Shown one piece after another: positions 1 to 10,267 of a stretch of DNA of 20,213 nt (position 1 is its first letter; every line of letters starts with the position of its first letter). The translations under genes were made by a program, and so were the position numbers. Source of the stretch: a virus; the IMG/VR virus record IMGVR_UViG_3300036466_000047, positions 1 through 20,213 of that record. One strand, written 5' to 3'. The notes under the pieces were generated by a model, which was not told where the DNA came from, searched no databases, and saw only the letters and a list, made by a program, of their open reading frames with translations.

Positions 1-1815
1 TCTTATACAGATTAGTTGATTCTTTTGCATTTCTTCTGTTAAGTTAATGTTATTGCTACAATCCTTTTTAAGCATCAATTCCATATAAGTGTTTTGTTTT
101 AATTTATTAACTCTATTTAAGATTCCTGTTGCTATGCTCATTTTTGTTCCTTGGTCTTTATCATCTAATTCTTCTAAAGTGTAAATGTATTCTTCTAAAT
201 TATTCATTTGTTCATCTGGAATCTTATCTATATATTCGTGTCTTAGTTTGTGGCTTTGTAATACGTTAAAAACATCCTTTATAGGCCCATCTGAAATAAA
301 CACTACAACTGCTGCTGCTTCTAAGAATCTTTCCATTCTTGCTCTTAATTCTGAATTATCGTTATTAATGGAGTTAATCAATGTCATAAGTTGACTTGTT
401 TTAGCTTTAGCACATCTGTAAACCTCAAATACATTATTGCTATTAGGAGTTACCTCGTTATACCCTAATCCTTGTAATTTATCAAAGTCGCTACAATCAA
501 TATTTAATACATTTTTTACTACACTTGATACGTCATCTGATAACTCACAATTCCCACAAAAGTCAAAGATTATAGTACATTCTTTGTTGTTTAGAGTGTC
601 ATTTGCTATGTTAGAAAATAAAGTTGTTTTCCCTGCTCTAGTAGGACCTATAACTGTTAGCGTTAAGAATCTGTACTCTTTATCCTCTGAAAGATACCCT
701 TGTTGTACTTTGCCTTTATAAGTATTATCTCCTACGCATATAACCCCTTTTTGTAATTCTTTTGGCACTTCTGATTCGTGAGTGTCTATCTTTTCTATCA
801 TGTTGTAATCGTCAAGTAATTCTCTGCCGGGTAATGCTATAAGATTCTGAATTTCCTTAGTAGACATTTTGTTAAGCTCTGTACCTATGTTAAGCCTATT
901 AAAGTTAATATCTCCTTTATGAGCTTTATAAGTCAACTGATTATCTTCTGATATACTTTTAAATCCTTCGCATACTGATACAGCATTATTGTATTTTCTA
1001 GTTCTATCTTCGCTTTCTGATAAGACTACTATCTGTGTGCCTACTACTGTATCATCTTTCTTTTTAATAGTGTTTTCAGAGAGCTTATTCTTGCCATACT
1101 GAATAAATAATAAATCTCTGATGTCTTGGTTGCTTTCTTTGTTATTTCCTCCTAAATCGCACAATATGTCTGTTAGGATATTGATAACTTCTAAGACTAT
1201 TGTTGCTACAAATTTAAAAGCATAAGTTACATTCATTTTTTCTTTATCTAAAGGATAGTTATTTTTAGATTTAGTTAGAGTTCTTTCGTGTTCTGCTCTC
1301 CATGTGTATTGAGTAATAGGTATAAAATTATAAAAGATTCCCACGCGATCTAAATCTTCCATGACATTAATTACATTTAATGCGCTACTCAATAGAGTAT
1401 TAGTTCTTTTATCTGTTGCTAAGGATAAACCATCTTCTTTACTGTATTGTAGTTTATATTTCTTGCAATCCTCTTTAAATATAGGAATAGATTCTACTTT
1501 TTTTATGGTGATTCCTTTCCATGTGTCGCCTATTTTTTCTTTTAATAAGTTCAGGTAGACTTCCGGAACGATAAAATAAAACTCTGTCTTTTGTTTTTCT
1601 ATATAAATGTAGTAACTTATTTTCGTTGGACAATTGAATCTTATTTGTTTTTCATGTTTCACTATTCGTTGAGTGAAATCTCTGTATATTGATGCTATGA
1701 CCTTTGCTATCTTATCCGAATTATAGTTTCTTATTGAGTTGTTGGGTATCAACTTTAAATATGTGTATGTAGGCTTTATTATTTGAAAATATTCTTTTAA
1801 TTTAATGGTTTTCAT
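1..1815 (-). CDS. HerA/VirB4/TraG-type P-loop ATPase, C-terminus beyond the window
   Basis: A reading frame opens with ATG at 1815 (GGAAGTG ribosome site; ATGA overlap with the upstream small membrane gene) and stays open to base 1, so at least 605 residues are present and the C-terminus is missing. The P-loop GPTRAGKTT lies at about residues 390-398 (bases 622-648). It is followed by TIIFDFCGN near residue 418, the position of the beta-strand 'D-x-x-G' motif after the P-loop in HerA/VirB4/TraC-like motors. The first ~380 residues have no recognisable motif and resemble the long N-terminal part of type IV secretion ATPases. The true Walker B would be downstream of the visible part. The gene follows two pilin-like membrane genes in the same operon, so a role at the membrane in DNA or protein transfer is inferred. 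A plain FtsK/TcpA-like translocase is the main alternative. Superfamily call is fairly sure; the subfamily is not. Confidence 0.6.
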   Translation of the reverse strand, partial: MKTIKLKEYFQIIKPTYTYLKLIPNNSIRNYNSDKIAKVIASIYRDFTQRIVKHEKQIRFNCPTKISYYIYIEKQKTEFYFIVPEVYLNLLKEKIGDTWKGITIKKVESIPIFKEDCKKYKLQYSKEDGLSLATDKRTNTLLSSALNVINVMEDLDRVGIFYNFIPITQYTWRAEHERTLTKSKNNYPLDKEKMNVTYAFKFVATIVLEVINILTDILCDLGGNNKESNQDIRDLLFIQYGKNKLSENTIKKKDDTVVGTQIVVLSESEDRTRKYNNAVSVCEGFKSISEDNQLTYKAHKGDINFNRLNIGTELNKMSTKEIQNLIALPGRELLDDYNMIEKIDTHESEVPKELQKGVICVGDNTYKGKVQQGYLSEDKEYRFLTLTVIGPTRAGKTTLFSNIANDTLNNKECTIIFDFCGNCELSDDVSSVVKNVLNIDCSDFDKLQGLGYNEVTPNSNNVFEVYRCAKAKTSQLMTLINSINNDNSELRARMERFLEAAAVVVFISDGPIKDVFNVLQSHKLRHEYIDKIPDEQMNNLEEYIYTLEELDDKDQGTKMSIATGILNRVNKLKQNTYMELMLKKDCSNNINLTEEMQKNQLICIR

Positions 1816-2009
1816 ATGGCACTTCCTATCCCTAGTAACAAAACATATATGACTATTGTCCCTAGTGATATTTGCATAAACCTTCCTGCATTTGTAACAG
1901 CATACAAAATCATTGAGCACACACATATGATTGATGCTATCCAGTAACCTGTATTTTTAACTACTTCTAATATATAAATAAAGAAATTACCTATCAGATT
2001 AGCAATCAT
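1812..2009 (-). CDS. small two-helix membrane protein, pilin-like paralogue
   Basis: A 65-residue protein with two hydrophobic segments (about residues 5-37 and 46-64) and almost no soluble part. It starts with ATG directly after the TAA of the preceding gene, with AAGGAGTG eight bases upstream, and its TGA overlaps the ATG of the ATPase gene. The stretch VVKNTGYWI matches VVRRIGYWI in the preceding gene, and both are followed by a short polar turn and a second helix, so the two look like paralogues. The size and topology fit TrbC/VirB2- or VirB3-like components of type IV secretion systems. No signal peptide is evident, unlike its neighbour. Function is inferred from shape and position only. 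Confidence 0.5.
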   Translation of the reverse strand: MIANLIGNFFIYILEVVKNTGYWIASIICVCSMILYAVTNAGRFMQISLGTIVIYVLLLGIGSAI

Positions 2010-2303
2010 TTAAAACACTCCTTCGACTAATCTTAGAGCATAAGGTAAAAAGAATAACGTTCCGTAAAGAATTACATATAGCATAACAGTTCTACCTATC
2101 GCGTGTACGTCACCTTTCATGCCTTGACCTATGATGTCACTTAAACCCTTGACTAGAATTATCCAATAGCCGATACGCCTAACCACTAATAAAATTCTAT
2201 TTCCTGCTGCATCAACCTTGCCTAAATCGGCAGCAAAACATACGTCAGTAAAAACCATAATTAACAACAATACCAATATAAGAATAACGCTTTTACGTTT
2301 CAA
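2010..2303 (-). CDS. TrbC/VirB2-like pilin-type membrane protein with signal peptide
   Basis: A 97-residue protein translated from a TTG start (2303) with an excellent AGGAGG site seven bases upstream; no suitable ATG exists at the start. Residues 1-25 form a typical signal peptide (basic MKRK, leucine/isoleucine-rich core, cleavage likely after CFA-A). The mature part (about 72 residues) has two membrane-spanning helices separated by a short loop GMKGDVHAIGR. Signal peptide plus two helices is the layout of TrbC/VirB2 major pilin subunits of type IV secretion systems. It heads the operon that goes on to the second small membrane protein and the ATPase. Its mRNA leader seems to start near 2397, inside the oppositely oriented small hydrophobic frame. 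A non-pilin membrane role cannot be excluded. Confidence 0.5.
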   Translation of the reverse strand: MKRKSVILILVLLLIMVFTDVCFAADLGKVDAAGNRILLVVRRIGYWIILVKGLSDIIGQGMKGDVHAIGRTVMLYVILYGTLFFLPYALRLVEGVF

Positions 2304-2463: not shown

Positions 2464-2553
2464 GCTGTAGTGTAGCGGATTCAGCGAGAGCGAAGAAGCA
2501 CACATCAGCTCTTGGGATAACTATAGCCTTTAGCCAGGTTATAGTTATTTTTT
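2464..2553 (+). ncRNA. structured small RNA or structured 3' untranslated region
   Basis: Bases 2464-2509 fold into one long imperfect hairpin: GCTG/CAGC (2464-2467 with 2506-2509), GTGT/ACAC (2470-2473 with 2500-2503), GC/GC, TTC/GAA (2480-2482 with 2492-2494) and GC/GC closing a GAGA tetraloop (2486-2489). The 3x3 internal loop GGA/GAA would form consecutive purine G-A mismatches. GAGA is a GNRA loop only on the + strand, and the following terminator has its T-run only on the + strand, so the RNA is read rightward. An alternative pairing of CGAGAGC (2485-2491) with GCTCTTG (2508-2514) would compete. I do not recognise the family. It could be the 3' part of the small-peptide mRNA or an independent regulator. 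Confidence 0.45.
2517..2553 (+). terminator. intrinsic terminator of the small + strand unit
   Basis: ATAACTATAGCC (2517-2528) pairs with GGTTATAGTTAT (2537-2548) in a 12-pair stem with one G-T pair and an eight-base loop, followed by a T-run (2548-2553). The T-run is only on the + strand side. It ends just at the 3' end of the convergent parR gene. Confidence 0.8.
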
Positions 2554-2770
2554 ATTCAAACATAGTGCTTATAGCTTCTTGTATATCGTTACTGCTTCCG
2601 ATTCCAGCATACTGTTTTATGAGCTTTATAATTTCTTCTTTATCTAACACAGTTTCTTTTTTCATATCTCTTTTCATGAGTTCAACAATGTACCGACTTT
2701 TATTGTATTGAGATTCTAAGTGTTCTAAGACATCACGATCTTTATCCTGGATATAAAAATTAACTCTCAT
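2552..2770 (-). CDS. parR: ParR-like ribbon-helix-helix partition adaptor
   Basis: A 72-residue protein whose ATG overlaps the parM stop (ATGA at 2767-2770), so it is translationally coupled to parM. It begins with a short beta-strand-like stretch (MRVNFYI) followed by two helices (VLEHLESQ and SRYIVELMKRDM), the pattern of a ribbon-helix-helix DNA-binding fold. A charged C-terminal tail ends in a hydrophobic helix (SNDIQEAISTMF) that could bind the ParM filament tip. Position directly downstream of an actin-like ParM is the main evidence for the ParR role, which is to bind centromere repeats and link plasmid DNA to the filament. Sequence alone would only support 'small RHH-like protein'. Confidence 0.6.
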   Translation of the reverse strand: MRVNFYIQDKDRDVLEHLESQYNKSRYIVELMKRDMKKETVLDKEEIIKLIKQYAGIGSSNDIQEAISTMFE

Positions 2771-3645
2771 TTCATCACCTTACCTATATTATAAATTCCA
2801 GTTACATTATCAAACACAGGGTTTGCCGATACTTTAAAGTTGTTGTAATAAAAATTAATTGTATCTTGTAAACGTAGTATTCCTCCACCTATTCCCAACA
2901 TTTTTAGAGTCTCAACCGACCAATTCTTTGTTATCATTTCTCTTGTTAATGTCTCGAAATATTCTTCGTATACGCTTTGAATAACTGTGTTACAATCAAT
3001 TCCTTTGATTCCATCTTGCATAATGTAGGGAATTTCATAGTCTTGGATATTCAGTAAGTATTTTTTGTTTAAAGCTGTTTTGATTCTGTTTTCAAGTATT
3101 TTTGTTCCTAAATTAATAGTGAACATTGATTCCTTTATTGGCTTTAGATTTTCCACTATACATCCATCAATTGTTAACCCTCCAATATCTAATACAGCTA
3201 CCATTTTTTCTTTGTGCTCCGATATGTTGTTGGCGTAAAGAGCTGCTAACCCTTGTGGAATTATTGAGCATTTTTTAATGTTAATTTTCTTTAGCTTACC
3301 ATTATGTCTAATTACTTCTGTTTTGCTCATGAGGGCTTTAAATTCATCTCTAAAATCGTCATTATAATAATGAATAAGTGGTAAGTCTAAGATTAAATTA
3401 AAATCTTCTTCATCTTCTGTTTGTTCTGCTAAAGCTCTAAGAGTACATAGCTTATGCACATAACCTTGTGTTTTGTTGTTGAGTAAATCGTCTTTACCTT
3501 CGCCTATCGTGTAAGTTTCTCCTTCGTAACTTATTGTATTGTTTTCATCAGTAGCTTTTTGTATTTTGCTTTGGAATTTATACATTCTATCTTCTGTTTT
3601 CACCTTTGTCTCGTAATATCCGTTGTCAATAGCACACAATTTCAT
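2767..3645 (-). CDS. parM: actin-like ParM plasmid segregation ATPase
   Basis: A 292-residue protein of the actin/ParM family, which forms filaments that push or pull low-copy plasmids to daughter cells. The nucleotide-binding signatures are visible: phosphate-1 DNGYYETK (residues 7-14), phosphate-2 DIGGLTID (153-160) and the adenosine motif GIGGG (251-255). Length is close to ParM/Alp proteins (about 290-320). The ATG at 3645 is chosen because AAAGGAG lies upstream (11-base spacing) and the protein then begins MKLCAIDNG as in the family; the GTG four codons earlier sits on top of the ribosome site. It forms an operon with the RHH gene at its 3' end. Its presence beside phage late genes points to plasmid-like maintenance of the element. 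Confidence 0.85.
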   Translation of the reverse strand: MKLCAIDNGYYETKVKTEDRMYKFQSKIQKATDENNTISYEGETYTIGEGKDDLLNNKTQGYVHKLCTLRALAEQTEDEEDFNLILDLPLIHYYNDDFRDEFKALMSKTEVIRHNGKLKKINIKKCSIIPQGLAALYANNISEHKEKMVAVLDIGGLTIDGCIVENLKPIKESMFTINLGTKILENRIKTALNKKYLLNIQDYEIPYIMQDGIKGIDCNTVIQSVYEEYFETLTREMITKNWSVETLKMLGIGGGILRLQDTINFYYNNFKVSANPVFDNVTGIYNIGKVMK

Positions 3646-3704
3646 ATTAATACACACTCCTTTTATAATTTAGGTATTTAATTTTGTGTAGTTATACTTA
3701 CAAT

Positions 3705-3720: not shown

Positions 3721-3793
3721 TAAATAATGCCTGTCTTAAATAAAAAAAGGAAAAAATATTTTTATATTGAATATTATTTTAGAGGTGATGCGA

Positions 3794-3994
3794 ATGAAAA
3801 ACAGATTTTTAGAGATAAGATTATCTAAAGGATATAAGTTTCAAAAAGATTTTGCTAAATATTTAGGAATAAGTCAATATCAATATACTAGATATGAAAA
3901 TAACGAAAGGCAACCTTCGCTGGAAGTGCTTTTAAAGATATGTGATAAATTAGATATGGATATAAGAGATATTTACGCAATAAAAAAAGAGTAG
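3794..3994 (+). CDS. Cro/C1-type helix-turn-helix regulator
   Basis: A 66-residue protein that is almost wholly one XRE/Cro-C1 helix-turn-helix domain: FQKDFAKYLGISQYQYTRYE is the turn and recognition helix region, followed by the usual LEVLLKICDKLDM helix. The start at 3794 is chosen over an earlier ATG because AGAGGTGATG lies immediately before it. It is the only clear rightward protein gene besides the tiny peptide, and is divergent from parMR. It may control parMR, its own gene or the phage state, but it is short for a full CI-like repressor with a dimerisation domain. Its last bases form part of the terminator stem that ends the convergent late operon. Confidence 0.8.
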   Translation: MKNRFLEIRLSKGYKFQKDFAKYLGISQYQYTRYENNERQPSLEVLLKICDKLDMDIRDIYAIKKE

Positions 3995-4127: not shown

Positions 4128-4859
4128 TTACCTTGCATATATTATATTGTTTTGCTTTTGGTAAATGTTATATTTGTATTTTGGTGTATTGATCGCTGCT
4201 ATATGTCCACCATCTAGCATGATTGCAAACTTTAATCCTAGTTTATTTATAGCCCAATCTTTAAATTGAGGTCCGTTACATTTCTTATAAAGTAAAGCGA
4301 TTTCGTTTTCTTCTGTTATGCCTATACCTGTATGCCCTGTGCTTCTTAAAACGTCTGAATAAGCTCCTGTGAATCCTTCTGCTGTTGGGTTGTAGTTATG
4401 TAGCCCTACGCCACTTACAGCCCACTCAATGTCGCTTATTAAGTCATATGGTATACTTATAGCCCTTATAGCTCCTAACACTCCATGATGTGTTTTGTAA
4501 AGAATAGTTTCAGGTTGTTTTAGCCAGGCATGAGAAGATGAATTATTAATAACTTTACCTTCCGACACTAGCACGCTTATAGCTTTACTATTCCATTGAA
4601 AAACCCCACTAATAGAGTAGGGTATATCTTTAACCGCTCTTTTGTTTTGGGAATAATCTATTTCTATGTTTTTAGTGTATATAACAATACCCCCAAAGAA
4701 TTTCTCCTCATAGGGGTATTCTACTTCTGCAAACTGTCTATATAGGCTATCTATTGTTTGTGGTCCTATAATTCCGTCAGGGTAAGCGTTTATTCCTTTC
4801 TGAATACCTTTTATCTTATCAAGTAAATCTTTGTCTGTAGGCTTAAATATGTTACTCAT
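4128..4859 (-). CDS. peptidoglycan-binding / phosphodiester glycosidase-like lysis protein
   Basis: A 243-residue protein counted from ATG 4859, chosen because AGAGGTGAT lies just upstream and the gene then begins four bases after the M15 peptidase stop. Residues 14-42 (IQKGINAYPDGIIGPQTIDS) look like a single peptidoglycan-binding-1 repeat with its D-G-I-x-G-P turn. Residues 55-225 resemble the phosphodiester glycosidase (NAGPA, DUF2233) fold: the core strands carry RSTGHTGIGI (172-181) and the LDGGH motif (215-219), where the family usually has R-x-x-x-G and D-G-G-G/S. There is no signal peptide, so export would need the holin. Acting on wall teichoic acid or other sugar-phosphate bonds is inference from the family. 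It closes the lysis cassette. Confidence 0.6.
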   Translation of the reverse strand: MSNIFKPTDKDLLDKIKGIQKGINAYPDGIIGPQTIDSLYRQFAEVEYPYEEKFFGGIVIYTKNIEIDYSQNKRAVKDIPYSISGVFQWNSKAISVLVSEGKVINNSSSHAWLKQPETILYKTHHGVLGAIRAISIPYDLISDIEWAVSGVGLHNYNPTAEGFTGAYSDVLRSTGHTGIGITEENEIALLYKKCNGPQFKDWAINKLGLKFAIMLDGGHIAAINTPKYKYNIYQKQNNIIYAR

Positions 4860-4863
4860 AATA

Positions 4864-5307
4864 TCACCTCTCATCCCATACAGTAAATTTATCCCTAAAT
4901 CTATCTATATGAAATCTTCCGTTTTTGTATCTGCCTATTCCTTTGTACTTCCGATATATTAAGTAAGTATATATATTGTCTAGTTGTTTATTTGTGGCAT
5001 CTATAACAAAGTCTAAACAATCAAATAAATATTGATGCTCACTTGCTGACGAGCCACCTATTTCTTTTCTAGCGTTATACTCTGGTGTTCTTCCTGCTGA
5101 TGTAATTGTAATTGGCAAACCATAAAGTATTCTTATATATTCTAAAGTATCTAAATCATATTGAGATACACAAGCTAAATCCAAACCATCATTTTTGTTT
5201 ACTAAAAATTCGTAAGCATAAAAGTTTTGCGATAATGCTTCTTTTTTATCTACAAGTCTTGATTCTATTGTGCCATCAAGCTTTTTAAGTAATAAAGTTA
5301 TTTTCAT
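4864..5307 (-). CDS. M15-type peptidase (L,D/D,D-peptidase) endolysin
   Basis: A 147-residue single-domain protein with the D-Ala-D-Ala carboxypeptidase-like layout of Peptidase_M15_3: SAGRTPEYN (residues 70-78), SASEHQYLFDCLDFV (87-101) and a late RFHIDRF (131-137). Expected zinc ligands are His91, an Asp around 96-99 and His133, with Asp135 nearby. It would cut peptide stems of the host wall at lysis. A GGGAGGTG site precedes ATG 5307. It lacks a cell-wall binding domain; the next gene supplies one separately. The His-to-Asp spacing is unusual: the best aligned Asp99 is eight residues after His91, whereas the family has seven. Confidence 0.8.
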   Translation of the reverse strand: MKITLLLKKLDGTIESRLVDKKEALSQNFYAYEFLVNKNDGLDLACVSQYDLDTLEYIRILYGLPITITSAGRTPEYNARKEIGGSSASEHQYLFDCLDFVIDATNKQLDNIYTYLIYRKYKGIGRYKNGRFHIDRFRDKFTVWDER

Positions 5308-5350
5308 ACTTCACCTCCCTAAATAGATTAGACATAGGACCACCGCCTTT

Positions 5351-5779
5351 CTAAACTTCTTCTTTATCAGCTCTATCTCTCATTTGTTGCAATAGACTTC
5401 TTAAAAAACTAGGTAACGCCACTTCCATTCTATCCATGTTTTCTAAGATGCTTATACCTTCATTCGCTATGTAGAAGAATATAACTGCCATGCGAATAGT
5501 TGCATCAAATTCAAATATTGTAATAGTAGAGCCTAACACACCATCAAGTAAAACTCCAATATAAACCACAACAAATATCATTACTTTTTTAATGATGCCT
5601 TTCATTCCGATTGAGCTAGAAAGTTTCCCCTGATACCCGCTAGCTATCATTCCTGTTAAGTAATCTATTATAACCATAGCAAAAAGCACTTTTAACCCCA
5701 TGTCCCAACCTCCAAATATTCCGCCTATAGCACCCCCTACTATTGCCAGTCCTGATTTTAAACTCGTTATTTTATCCAT
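5351..5779 (-). CDS. phage holin (Phage_holin_4 family)
   Basis: A 142-residue membrane protein counted from ATG 5779, which has AAAGGAG six bases upstream; the longer frame starts inside the previous gene. Hydrophobic segments lie at about residues 11-24, 29-46, 66-84 and 97-112. The stretch MVIIDYLTGMIAS (35-47) followed by a GMKGIIKK turn (58-65) and an ANEGISILENM segment (105-115) is characteristic of the phage holin family that includes toxin-secretion holins such as TcdE. The tail is charged and cytoplasmic. It would permeabilise the membrane and release the two lysins encoded immediately downstream. Confidence 0.85.
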   Translation of the reverse strand: MDKITSLKSGLAIVGGAIGGIFGGWDMGLKVLFAMVIIDYLTGMIASGYQGKLSSSIGMKGIIKKVMIFVVVYIGVLLDGVLGSTITIFEFDATIRMAVIFFYIANEGISILENMDRMEVALPSFLRSLLQQMRDRADKEEV

Positions 5780-5790
5780 GTTTTCTCCTT

Positions 5791-6309
5791 TCAAATTTCC
5801 ACTATAGTCCATTCAGCTGTGCTTCTCCGAGAATTAGAAGTCCCTCTGATAGCTTGTATGGTAGTAGTGTTTGGTAGTTGCAAAAAAGATTGAAAATCTC
5901 CAGTGTAAGCTCCGCTATCTATCAATTTACCACCTCGCCTAAATATTAAAGCCTTTTCGATTTCTACCGGGCTTATTGTTTCTGAAGATGTTAAAGTATC
6001 CCACGGGAAAGTGATAACTCCACTCTGCATCGATTTAATTTTTTCGAATTCTACTACTCTCCAATAACCATAACCTGCAATTTTACCGCTTAATTGTAAT
6101 GTGGTAGAGTCTATCAAGGTAGCGGTAAGCCCTATATAAGAATAATCAGTTGACATAGATGTAAATTGCACCTCAACAGCGGTCTTGGCTACATCTACAG
6201 GAGATATTGTTACAATTTCGGCCCCAGCATAAATCCCGCTTTGAATTGATTTTATAAGAGGCTTGTATGCAACCCCGACTCCTAGCCCTGCGAATCTATT
6301 TTCTAGCAT
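5791..6309 (-). CDS. tail/baseplate appendage protein with duplicated domain
   Basis: A 172-residue protein that starts inside the stop of the previous gene (TAATG). It is built of two similar halves: residues 19-86 begin IKSIQSG and contain ITISPVDV-like VTISPVDVAKTAVEV; residues 91-171 begin IKSMQSG and contain ETISPVEIEKALIF. Both halves end in an aromatic strand (YGYWRVVEF and TAEWTIVEI). The repeated 'IKS-x-Q-x-G ... ISPV' unit is familiar from short tail-fibre-like proteins placed between baseplate genes and the holin in Firmicute phages. A role in the tail tip or host binding is inferred from position. No enzyme motif is visible. Confidence 0.5.
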   Translation of the reverse strand: MLENRFAGLGVGVAYKPLIKSIQSGIYAGAEIVTISPVDVAKTAVEVQFTSMSTDYSYIGLTATLIDSTTLQLSGKIAGYGYWRVVEFEKIKSMQSGVITFPWDTLTSSETISPVEIEKALIFRRGGKLIDSGAYTGDFQSFLQLPNTTTIQAIRGTSNSRRSTAEWTIVEI

Positions 6310-7617: not shown

Positions 7618-9405
7618 TTAAAAGGAATATTTTGATATTTTTTTTATATGGTAACTTGAACTACCTCCCCATATATCATATGTTGCACCATTGCACACAA
7701 CATTAACATTAACGGTTAGTCTTGCAGTGTTTACCCCTATAAAATTAGAAGGTATGAAAAAAGGATAAGAAAACAGCATATTTGTTGTATTGTAATAACC
7801 TTCAACCAACATTACATCATTTTCAGATATATTAAGGGTTATCCCGGTTAAATTCCATGTATCGCCACTCCACAATGTTGTTATAGTTACACCCTCAGCT
7901 GATGCATTTATAGCATTCTTAGTTTGTAGGGGTGTCATGTATTTAATATTTGATGTGCCAGCCTGGGCTTCTGCTTGAGTTGCTATCCCGTAATTTAAAA
8001 CATCGCTTAATCCTAAGTGACTTTTCGTTAAAGTTACATTTCCGCCAACCTGCGCGACGCCATTCACTGATATTGTCAATCCATCTTGACCTTCAGGGCC
8101 TTGAATACCTTGAATGCCTTGAGAGCCAGTGTCTCCCTTCGGACCTTGAATTCCTTGTGGCCCTTCCGCGCCTGTCTCGCCTTTTGGCCCTTGTGGGCCT
8201 TCGATGCCTTGAGGACCTTTTAAATCTGTGTATGCATAGCTAGATTCATCTTCTCTTTTTATGCCTAATTCAGTTCCGTCCCAAGAATAATTTAATCCAA
8301 TTCCAACTGCTTCGGAAGAATCGCTTGACTCAGTTTCTAAAGCTAGGATTCTTTTAGAAGTTGTGCTCATTATGCTAGTTATAGTTTTTTCAGGCTGACC
8401 AAATTCAGGTATGATTGATATTTTACCAGCTTCATAGATTTCTTGCACTTTTTTAAGCTGTAAATGTCGCTTAGTGTTTTTATCTATGACCACTGTAACA
8501 AAGTCGCCTAAATCATAGTCGATTCCGTATTTAAATTGCCTGTCGATTGTTTCAAATTCATAATTGTTTATTTCTGCTAGTTCATTTAGCTTTTGATTGC
8601 CTCGTTCCGTTAGTTCACTTTCAACGTTAGTGTCTCTCGCATCTATGAATATTTCTTTTTTACGTGTGCCTGCGCCTGTGACTTTGACTATTGTTCTATC
8701 TGCGCCTTCGCCTTGTCCTGCCACATAAATAACGTTTTTGGTCGATGTATTGTCGGATACTTTTCTGTAGTCTGATATGTTGCCATATTTCAAACCGAAT
8801 AAGATTCTCGAATTAACACTTTGAATTGATGTTCTGTTGACTCCTTGATATACATTGAATACAAATCTTTGGTTTGGTATGTCTAATTCAAGCCCATAGC
8901 CAAGGTCTTCTGTTAATAAAACTCTGCTTATTTCATCGGTTAAAACTTTGTATCTTGTTTGTTCAGTTATTGTGTTTCCCAAGCCTTTAATTGTCCCTAG
9001 AACGATTGGATATTGCGCTCTAGTTAAATCGGTAGGGTTAATGCAGTTAGTGTCTACCCAAGCCCTCACGATTGCTTCACGTGTGCCTGTTTGGATGTCA
9101 TAAGACTCAGAGGGTATTGTTATGTAATCTTTCAAGAGCGTGTTAAGGCTTAGTGCTGTTATCTCGTAGTTTGTAGTGTTACCCGATAGTTTTTCTTCTA
9201 TTTTTTCAATAATAAAAACTTTGTTATATTCACGATCAAACCATATTAAATCATCTTTTTGGATTAGGTCAGCATTTGTGATTTCGGAATTGATTGTTAC
9301 TGTTAGACTTCCGATTCCGTTCCACACTCGGTTGACTATAGCTTCGAACGCTCCTATGGATGCTTTATAAACAAAATCTAAACTCATTATATTAAGGGTT
9401 TTCAT
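7618..9405 (-). CDS. tail-tip protein, Gp37-like N-terminus with collagen-like stalk
   Basis: A 595-residue protein from ATG 9405 (GGGGGTGT ribosome site, one base after the previous stop). Residues 1 to about 360 resemble the siphophage ReqiPepy6 Gp37-like/phage minor structural protein, the tail-associated hub: MSLDF, SLTVTI and EIVTALSL-like EITALSL strands and the TEQTRYKVL and IFIDARD stretches fit. Next come 15 uninterrupted G-x-y triplets (bases 8080-8217), a collagen-like triple helix. A receptor-binding head of about 165 residues follows, starting LTISVNGVAQVGGNVTLTK. Three copies would trimerise through the stalk and bind the host. No peptidase motif is seen, so it is not an obvious tail lysin. 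Confidence 0.7.
   Translation of the reverse strand: MKTLNIMSLDFVYKASIGAFEAIVNRVWNGIGSLTVTINSEITNADLIQKDDLIWFDREYNKVFIIEKIEEKLSGNTTNYEITALSLNTLLKDYITIPSESYDIQTGTREAIVRAWVDTNCINPTDLTRAQYPIVLGTIKGLGNTITEQTRYKVLTDEISRVLLTEDLGYGLELDIPNQRFVFNVYQGVNRTSIQSVNSRILFGLKYGNISDYRKVSDNTSTKNVIYVAGQGEGADRTIVKVTGAGTRKKEIFIDARDTNVESELTERGNQKLNELAEINNYEFETIDRQFKYGIDYDLGDFVTVVIDKNTKRHLQLKKVQEIYEAGKISIIPEFGQPEKTITSIMSTTSKRILALETESSDSSEAVGIGLNYSWDGTELGIKREDESSYAYTDLKGPQGIEGPQGPKGETGAEGPQGIQGPKGDTGSQGIQGIQGPEGQDGLTISVNGVAQVGGNVTLTKSHLGLSDVLNYGIATQAEAQAGTSNIKYMTPLQTKNAINASAEGVTITTLWSGDTWNLTGITLNISENDVMLVEGYYNTTNMLFSYPFFIPSNFIGVNTARLTVNVNVVCNGATYDIWGGSSSYHIKKISKYSF
8080..8217 (-). repeat. collagen-like G-x-y triplet repeat region
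   Basis: Fifteen consecutive G-x-y triplets plus a closing Gly, 46 residues, many of the types GPQ, GIQ, GPK and GPE. On the DNA this shows as a short imperfect 9-base pattern. Such tracts form a triple-helical stalk in phage fibres. Repeat number can change by recombination. Confidence 0.9.
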
Positions 9406-9406
9406 A

Positions 9407-10267
9407 TTACACCCCCACATACTTGTTTCTAAATTTCAGCAGTGCACTTGCTACATCTGTGGCGTTGGCTGTTATTACTATGTTATTTTCGCCTATGGCA
9501 AGCTGAAAGAATTCTGTTTGGTCTACGTCAATATATTGAAATGCGCTTTCTTGCACGCCTGTAGAGATTGTTGTCTTGACTACATTTATATTTTCTAGTT
9601 CAGTTGTAATTTTTAGTGATTCATCTGCTGATATGTTGGTTGTAATGACTATTTTCTCGTCTCCATTTGTTATCTCAAGTGGTGCTGTTTGTGGTCCGTC
9701 GATGACGATTTCTAACGGACATTCTACGTCGCCTTTATTTTCTAGTACGAATCCATCTACGTTAAAAAAGCCGAATGAGAAGGTGTCTGTGATGCCTACA
9801 GGGAAGCTAAAGGTAGACGCTCCACTTATGGCTTGAATTTCCGTTGAATTATAATCTTTTAGGTATGGGTCGTATGCTTCTAGAATTATTGAAGTCACTT
9901 GAAAGTTAGGTCCTCTACTTTTATTGCCGAGTCTCGAAGGTAATGTTTTTGTTTTAACTTTATCGTACACATAATATTGATCGTTGTTTATTACTGTTAA
10001 AGTCGCCATTCCTGTTTTAGGATTTAGTACATTGTAAAGAGTCCTTATGTCTGCATCTAAGGTATCCGATAACACTGTAAAATCTATTTTGATTAATTTA
10101 GATTTAAAGTAAGAATCCCCTACACCAGATTCACCGTCCTGATAAGGGGATTTAACAGTTTGACTTACTGCATCCGTTCCTCCGATATCGACCTTTTGCA
10201 ATATACACTTGGAGGTTGCTGAAAATTCTATTGTTTTATTATTTTTATCTGTGTATATTAATTTCAT
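9407..10267 (-). CDS. distal tail protein (Dit), siphovirus tail component
   Basis: A 286-residue protein from ATG 10267, one base after the tape measure stop, with GGGGGTTGT upstream. The N-terminal part (MKLIYTDKNNKTIEF to about residue 135, with VSQTVKSPYQDGESGVG and DSYFKSKLIKIDFTVLSD) matches the beta-rich N-terminal domain of phage tail family/Dit proteins, which form the ring linking tail tube and tip. The C-terminal part (ECPLEIVIDGP and following) is a galectin-like beta domain typical of large Dits. Order tape measure, Dit, tip protein is conserved in siphophages and supports the call. Confidence 0.8.
   Translation of the reverse strand: MKLIYTDKNNKTIEFSATSKCILQKVDIGGTDAVSQTVKSPYQDGESGVGDSYFKSKLIKIDFTVLSDTLDADIRTLYNVLNPKTGMATLTVINNDQYYVYDKVKTKTLPSRLGNKSRGPNFQVTSIILEAYDPYLKDYNSTEIQAISGASTFSFPVGITDTFSFGFFNVDGFVLENKGDVECPLEIVIDGPQTAPLEITNGDEKIVITTNISADESLKITTELENINVVKTTISTGVQESAFQYIDVDQTEFFQLAIGENNIVITANATDVASALLKFRNKYVGV

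Follow-up and report, generated by a model that had tools for sequence, protein, structure and literature searches.

A block of genes next to the late operon of a siphovirus represents a single cassette that recurs in many viruses whose hosts are Gram-positive bacteria. Judged from sequence comparison, it most likely encodes a translocator that is derived from a type IV secretion system (T4SS) and fed by a filament system. We consider it quite likely that the cassette gives rise to a working T4SS-related membrane machine and, with somewhat less confidence, regard this machine as a minimal T4SS-derived envelope translocator of the infected or lysogenic cell. That the machine moves DNA is possible, though not likely. 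Our data suggest that phages with the cassette equip their host cells with a channel that has so far gone unrecognised.

The window, which is the whole stretch of DNA analysed here, is an entire IMG/VR record, a linear fragment of 20,213 bases. Its minus strand carries a full siphovirus late operon, as stated in the original prediction; this operon extends from the terminase through the lysis module and is followed by a five-gene block. The block starts with a ParM-type actin-like protein of 296 aa (2767..3657), which matches Pfam ALP_N (2.5e-18) and the partition protein family phrog_691 (3e-48). Its end is overlapped by the gene for a ribbon-helix-helix (RHH) ParR-like DNA-binding adaptor of 72 aa (2552..2770), which matches phrog_14312 (2e-9) and no Pfam model over the cut-off. 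A 13-bp inverted repeat just past the RHH gene (2517..2548) is a possible terminator between this gene and the next. Then follow gene 1 for a VirB2-like pilin candidate of 97 aa (2010..2303), gene 2 for a VirB3-like two-helix membrane protein of 65 aa (1812..2009), and gene 3 for a VirB4-like ATPase (1..1815), which is cut by the contig end after the first 605 of about 790 residues. These last three minus-strand genes are all present where they had been predicted, but they abut or overlap by 4 nt and do not all overlap. A small XRE/Cro-type repressor (3767..3994, plus strand; Pfam HTH_3, 5e-12) lies between the late operon and the block, divergent from the cassette with a gap of 110 bp; most temperate-type relatives have a small divergent XRE gene upstream as well. 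The three-gene lysis module directly upstream of the cassette (4128..5812, minus strand) comprises a holin-like protein, called by size, hydrophobicity and place (5812-5351), an M15 peptidase/endolysin (5307-4864), and, between endolysin and repressor, a NAGPA-like protein (phosphodiester glycosidase, below the Pfam cut-off; 4874-4128). Further into the late operon, a tail protein (7618-9420) contains collagen-like Gly-X-Y repeats (GPQGIEGPQGPKGETGAEG).

Profiles built without the window sequences were searched against the window in a leave-one-out test. Gene 1 (E 1e-16), gene 3 (5e-224), RHH (1e-7), ParM (2e-16) and XRE (2e-15) were regained and gene 2 was not, which argues against a chance origin of the window block. 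Its recurrence was assessed in 27 ATPase lineages with less than 85% identity and at least 4 kb of upstream DNA. Among them, 26 have a pilin-like gene, 24 a hairpin gene and 18 an RHH gene, while a filament motor was found in 15 (ParM in 13, TubZ in 2) and was undetected by these profiles in 12 of the 27. Some profile seeds were drawn from the loci of these same lineages; L033, L035-L037 and L092-L095, none of which seeded the small-gene profiles, have this block too. The three-gene set recurs across numerous phage genomes, and lysis genes are often its neighbours. With dN/dS values of 0.01-0.21 for the RHH, pilin, hairpin and ATPase genes, the cassette is under strong purifying selection across divergent phages.

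The original prediction inferred that a phage-plasmid may carry these genes; judged from their distribution, they are not a peculiarity of phage-plasmids. The cassette is present in the lytic phages SPP1 and GBK2, in SPO1-like phages and in the integrated prophages L032 and L038. An ATPase homologue was found in 53 phage records versus only 2 of 72,556 plasmid records; the one plasmid of these two that was inspected carries the same cassette, with ParM, ATPase and Replic_Relax, beside an integrase. The term phage-plasmid is therefore too narrow. As for the window itself, ParM and RHH are present as partition genes, but its contig is a fragment and integrated prophages share this cassette. The family phrog_5156 matches 16 of 398 Bacillota genomes at 1e-15, many of the matches being partial or remote. 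In the Paenibacillus humicus genome G022 we noticed two different cassette copies (L036/L069 and L054), and in the Paenibacillus prophage L038 AgrB-like and LytTR-like genes were seen by eye just downstream of the cassette (L038:13294-14366). The distribution also bears on the idea that a phage once captured a conjugative plasmid, of which the cassette would be a decaying remnant. The tyrovirus authors regarded their genes as plasmid-derived and proposed acquisition from a conjugative plasmid (PMC9703825), and relaxase and coupling protein are indeed missing. However, a decaying remnant would hardly keep its gene order in divergent lineages, such low dN/dS values and intact Walker and M23 motifs, or be so rare in plasmids. 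Due to this conservation, the remnant reading is largely refuted, and we give it next to no probability.

The ATPase is the protein with the clearest relationship to a T4SS. The open frame of gene 3 begins at position 1926, but its homologues align only from query residue 38 onward. This places the true start at the ATG at 1815, with an overlap of 4 nt with gene 2. The P-loop (Walker A) GPTRAGKTT is located at about residues 390-398, and the window copy lacks the last ~185 residues. The protein belongs to phrog_5156 (8e-73), for which no function is annotated there, and no Pfam or NCBIfam model was matched above cut-off. The T4SS coupling-protein domain TrwB_AAD_bind was matched by 8 of 18 relatives (best 3e-6, below the curated cut-off). 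For L018, a relative with a complete ATPase, an AlphaFold2 model was made (mean pLDDT 84.5). Its best PDB match is R388 TrwK/VirB4, with both proteins aligned from end to end (E 7e-13, 913 columns), followed by TrwB (about 490 columns), HerA (1e-8) and a Thermoanaerobacter VirB4 domain. Since identity in the structural alignment with TrwK is about 10% and full-length TM-scores are about 0.33, the homology is remote and the ATPase is best read as VirB4-like. In agreement with this, a four-sequence VirB4 profile aligned with the ATPase family over 553 columns (P 2e-5; reversed control 0.57). Single-sequence hhalign against the R388 proteins gave no useful signal, and multi-sequence profiles were needed. 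The predicted VirB4-type ATPase, as opposed to one related to FtsK only, is therefore supported by a full-length structural match to TrwK/VirB4. A reading as FtsK only was rejected because VirB4 fits better than HerA, and signal peptides and the M23 peptidase described below point outside the cell.

Gene 1 (2303-2010, minus strand) starts with TTG, closely preceded by the ribosome site AGGAGG. The 97-aa protein begins with a hydrophobic signal that ends CFA|AD, followed by a second hydrophobic segment, and aligns with its family in signal peptide, cleavage-like AxA site and two helices. Pfam TrbC/VirB2 is matched by 5 of 18 family members, below or near cut-off. Against a profile of true TrbC pilins the family reached a score of 26.8, compared to 15.6 for the best of 200 block-shuffles and 15.5 for the reversed alignment; since block-shuffles disrupt the signal-helix-helix order, a share of this score may reflect architecture. 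The predicted VirB2/TrbC pilin is thus supported by a profile score above the shuffles, along with the sub-threshold Pfam matches, and we consider the protein a candidate VirB2 homologue at the profile level. A PDB fold search with the pilin model and a search of the profile against PDB sequences returned chance matches only. With the window pilin alone, tblastn against phage records found nothing, and relatives were reached by profile only. In L094, up to four proteins with an N-terminal 'TMSIxxFM'-like motif precede the hairpin gene (L094:8020-9696), and since the pilin profile matches two of them, this run may be a pilin array. Another short motif, similar to ETIKWNDFF, is common to pilin leaders and ATPase N-termini, for example in L003, L007 and L025; it was spotted post hoc, is strong in three pilins and is weak or absent in others including that of the window.

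Gene 2 (2009-1812, minus strand) encodes two hydrophobic segments within 65 aa, and its position and topology make it a candidate VirB3. A comparison with VirB3 gave no sequence signal (hhalign P 0.33; Pfam VirB3 0.19 in 2 of 16), and a count of loop charges was too crude for use in assigning membrane topology. In 8 of the 27 lineages an M23 peptidase is joined to the hairpin protein, and in several relatives with this fusion its two catalytic motifs are intact; in L030 the M23 peptidase is a separate gene after the ATPase. The peptidoglycan hydrolase that the original prediction suggested looking for therefore occurs in 9 lineages altogether, although it is absent from the cassette of the window itself. 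The fusion is at the N-end of the hairpin in L008 and at its C-end in L022. Both termini of a two-helix hairpin are on the same side of the membrane, and either arrangement would thus fit a peptidase outside the cell.

A peptidase, hairpin proteins and the position of the cassette could also point to an accessory lysis module, with the hairpin proteins acting like holins or antiholins and the M23 domain as an extra lysin. In the window as well as in L002, L003 and L004, the cassette comes directly after the genes for holin and endolysin. Such a module would nevertheless not account for the separate divergent regulator in temperate-type loci or for a signal-peptide pilin with TrbC similarity, and its ATPase is of a kind that, to our knowledge, no lysis system uses. 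We give this reading hardly any chance, and the holin interpretation of the small proteins was rejected for the same reasons.

ParM and RHH proteins are partition proteins, and the window combines an actin-like motor with an RHH adaptor as in the ParMRC partition system. A search for a centromere (parC) revealed short weak repeats only, upstream of ParM, and no close relative of the window ParM was found in viral_contigs. In L015 (7648-8745) and L030 (7765-8862) a TubZ/FtsZ-like GTPase (Pfam Tubulin, 2e-12 and 2e-16) replaces ParM. The cassette might accordingly be a DNA segregation pump, in which ParM-RHH and an FtsK/HerA-like pump share out the phage genomes when the cell divides, with the small membrane proteins as anchor only. 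Besides the partition proteins themselves, the HerA match is consistent with this, and the genes were read as plasmid functions in two earlier studies (PMC9658697; PMC9703825). The segregation pump is, however, improbable, as strictly lytic phages (SPO1-like and SPP1) carry the cassette, as integrated prophages, for which partition is unnecessary, have it too, and as the better fit of VirB4, the signal peptides and the M23 domain do not agree with an internal pump. Since ParM is kept in a strictly lytic SPO1-like phage and in the chromosomally integrated prophages L032 and L038, it probably does not function in partition only. Other roles are known for such filaments: ParM of plasmid R1 binds the VirB4-like TraC, and efficient transfer needs ParM/ParR (PMC4949242), while in an integrated prophage phage DNA is linked to actin-like filaments by AlpC/AlpA (PMC4446434).

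The original prediction suggested looking for further transfer genes to the left of base 1. As the window is the whole record, this sequence is unreadable from this genome, and relatives had to be consulted. The nearest ones, L092 (52% identity), L095 (53%) and L093 (46%), have nothing T4SS-like past the ATPase, which is followed by an integrase in L093; the ATPase is usually the last gene. The coupling protein VirD4/TraG (PF02534) was over cut-off in 0 of 23 phage records, and PF03432, the one relaxase family searched, in 0 of 21; a Replic_Relax gene adjoins the ATPase in CampHawk. Inspection of neighbours in the relatives revealed no VirB8-like or multi-pass gene by the ATPase, and hence nothing resembling the VirB6 that had been sought. 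The prediction of a T4SS-like system is supported at the level of parts, while the proposed phage-plasmid transfer is possible but hypothetical.

A pilin and an ATPase acting without relaxase are known from archaeal DNA import by the Ced and Ted systems, and the cassette could likewise take DNA from neighbours into the infected cell. Both combine a VirB2-like pilin with a VirB4/HerA ATPase, and Ted loci include a ParA-like gene (PMC9905601). Import is nonetheless very improbable for the cassette: no VirB6/CedA-like multi-pass channel gene was seen to adjoin it on inspection, and the benefit for a lytic phage would be unclear.

We propose that the signal peptide directs export of the VirB2-like pilin, which would form a hairpin retained in the membrane. 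There the VirB3-like hairpin protein, in some phages with a wall-cutting M23 domain of its own, would anchor the VirB4-like ATPase. The ATPase may extract or assemble pilin subunits, drive the substrate, or both. The ParM (or TubZ) filament, together with the RHH adaptor, would dock DNA, most likely phage DNA, on this complex, and the divergent XRE repressor would time cassette expression. Gene content and order, the recurrence, the purifying selection and, at the level of profile or fold, the homology of ATPase and pilin to VirB4 and VirB2 are results of the analysis. We infer that the proteins form one machine and that it spans the wall; DNA as its substrate and the direction of transport are likewise deduced. 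Several results count against the model: VirB6, VirB8, relaxase and coupling protein were not found within or next to the cassette, Pfam matches of pilin and ATPase stay under the curated cut-offs, the pilin model matches no PDB fold, gene 2 shows no VirB3 signal, the filament motor went undetected in 12 of 27 lineages, and SPP1 does without ORFs 31.2 and 32 in the laboratory. A bolder version of this model, which we put forward only tentatively and hold to be less likely than DNA movement as such, is a relaxase-free pilin-based DNA exporter in tailed phages of Gram-positive bacteria. Here a ParM or TubZ filament would haul phage DNA to a VirB4-driven wall-cutting channel, and the phage genome would pass directly between cells in addition to travelling in virions.

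Alternatively, the cassette may be an exclusion or fitness module that alters membrane or wall and blocks the injection of other phages, with no substrate moved between cells. In L032 it has its own divergent regulator and lies between lysis genes and host DNA, with host genes directly after it; this is the usual site for lysogenic-conversion genes. VirB2-type proteins sit in the membrane, and the SPP1 homologues are early genes, of which 31.2 and 32 proved non-essential in laboratory work (PMC6316719). We consider exclusion unlikely, since it leaves unexplained an 800-aa VirB4-type motor, the attached M23 peptidase and the ParM/TubZ-RHH pair in the block. Returning to the T4SS-derived translocator, the question is directly testable in the laboratory phage SPP1, which carries the cassette. 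Should DNA be what the cassette moves, spread by virions and transfer resembling conjugation would be combined in one element; should it move protein or exclude rivals, it would represent a new use of T4SS parts.

The cassette resembles trwL-trwM-trwK of R388 (MPF_T), which correspond to virB2-virB3-virB4, in gene order, sizes and ATPase architecture, whereas R388 also has other VirB proteins, coupling protein and relaxase, and the structural alignment mentioned above shows about 10% identity. Gram-positive T4SS classes are said to be without a VirB2 major pilin (PMC12102498), and the text of one recent T4SS review mentions neither bacteriophages nor prophages. Plasmid R1 likewise pairs ParM/ParR with a VirB4-like ATPase (PMC4949242), but its T4SS is a complete F-type system that includes relaxase and coupling protein, and its par genes lie outside any compact VirB2-VirB4 cassette. 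The Ced and Ted systems share with the cassette a minimal set of VirB2-like pilin and VirB4/HerA ATPase without relaxase, but have a VirB6/CedA channel and archaeal hosts, with no M23 domain or ParM/TubZ noted (PMC9905601). Among phages, gp31-gp31.1-gp31.2-gp32 of SPP1 and their GBK2 counterparts are homologues of the window genes and encode RHH, a pair of membrane proteins and ATPase, arranged as in the window and located next to lysis genes; unlike the window, these strictly lytic phages have no ParM and no divergent XRE gene. A membrane translocon of gp31.1, gp31.2 and gp32 was proposed by the SPP1 authors (PMC6316719). Genes 135-128 of SPO1-like CampHawk and gp11-gp18 of tyroviruses unite ParM, small membrane proteins and a VirB4-like ATPase in one block (PMC9703825), and differ in having Replic_Relax past the ATPase; in CampHawk the pilin precedes ParM and three one-helix proteins take the place of the hairpin gene. 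TrbC/VirB2, Replic_Relax and FtsK-like proteins were named in Novomoskovsk (PMC9658697). Pieces of the cassette have thus been noted before in SPP1, tyroviruses and Novomoskovsk, and were read as plasmid leftovers or an unexplained translocon. New are the unified cassette with its VirB2-VirB3-VirB4 order, the M23 fusion, the alternation of ParM and TubZ, and the occurrence in integrated prophages.
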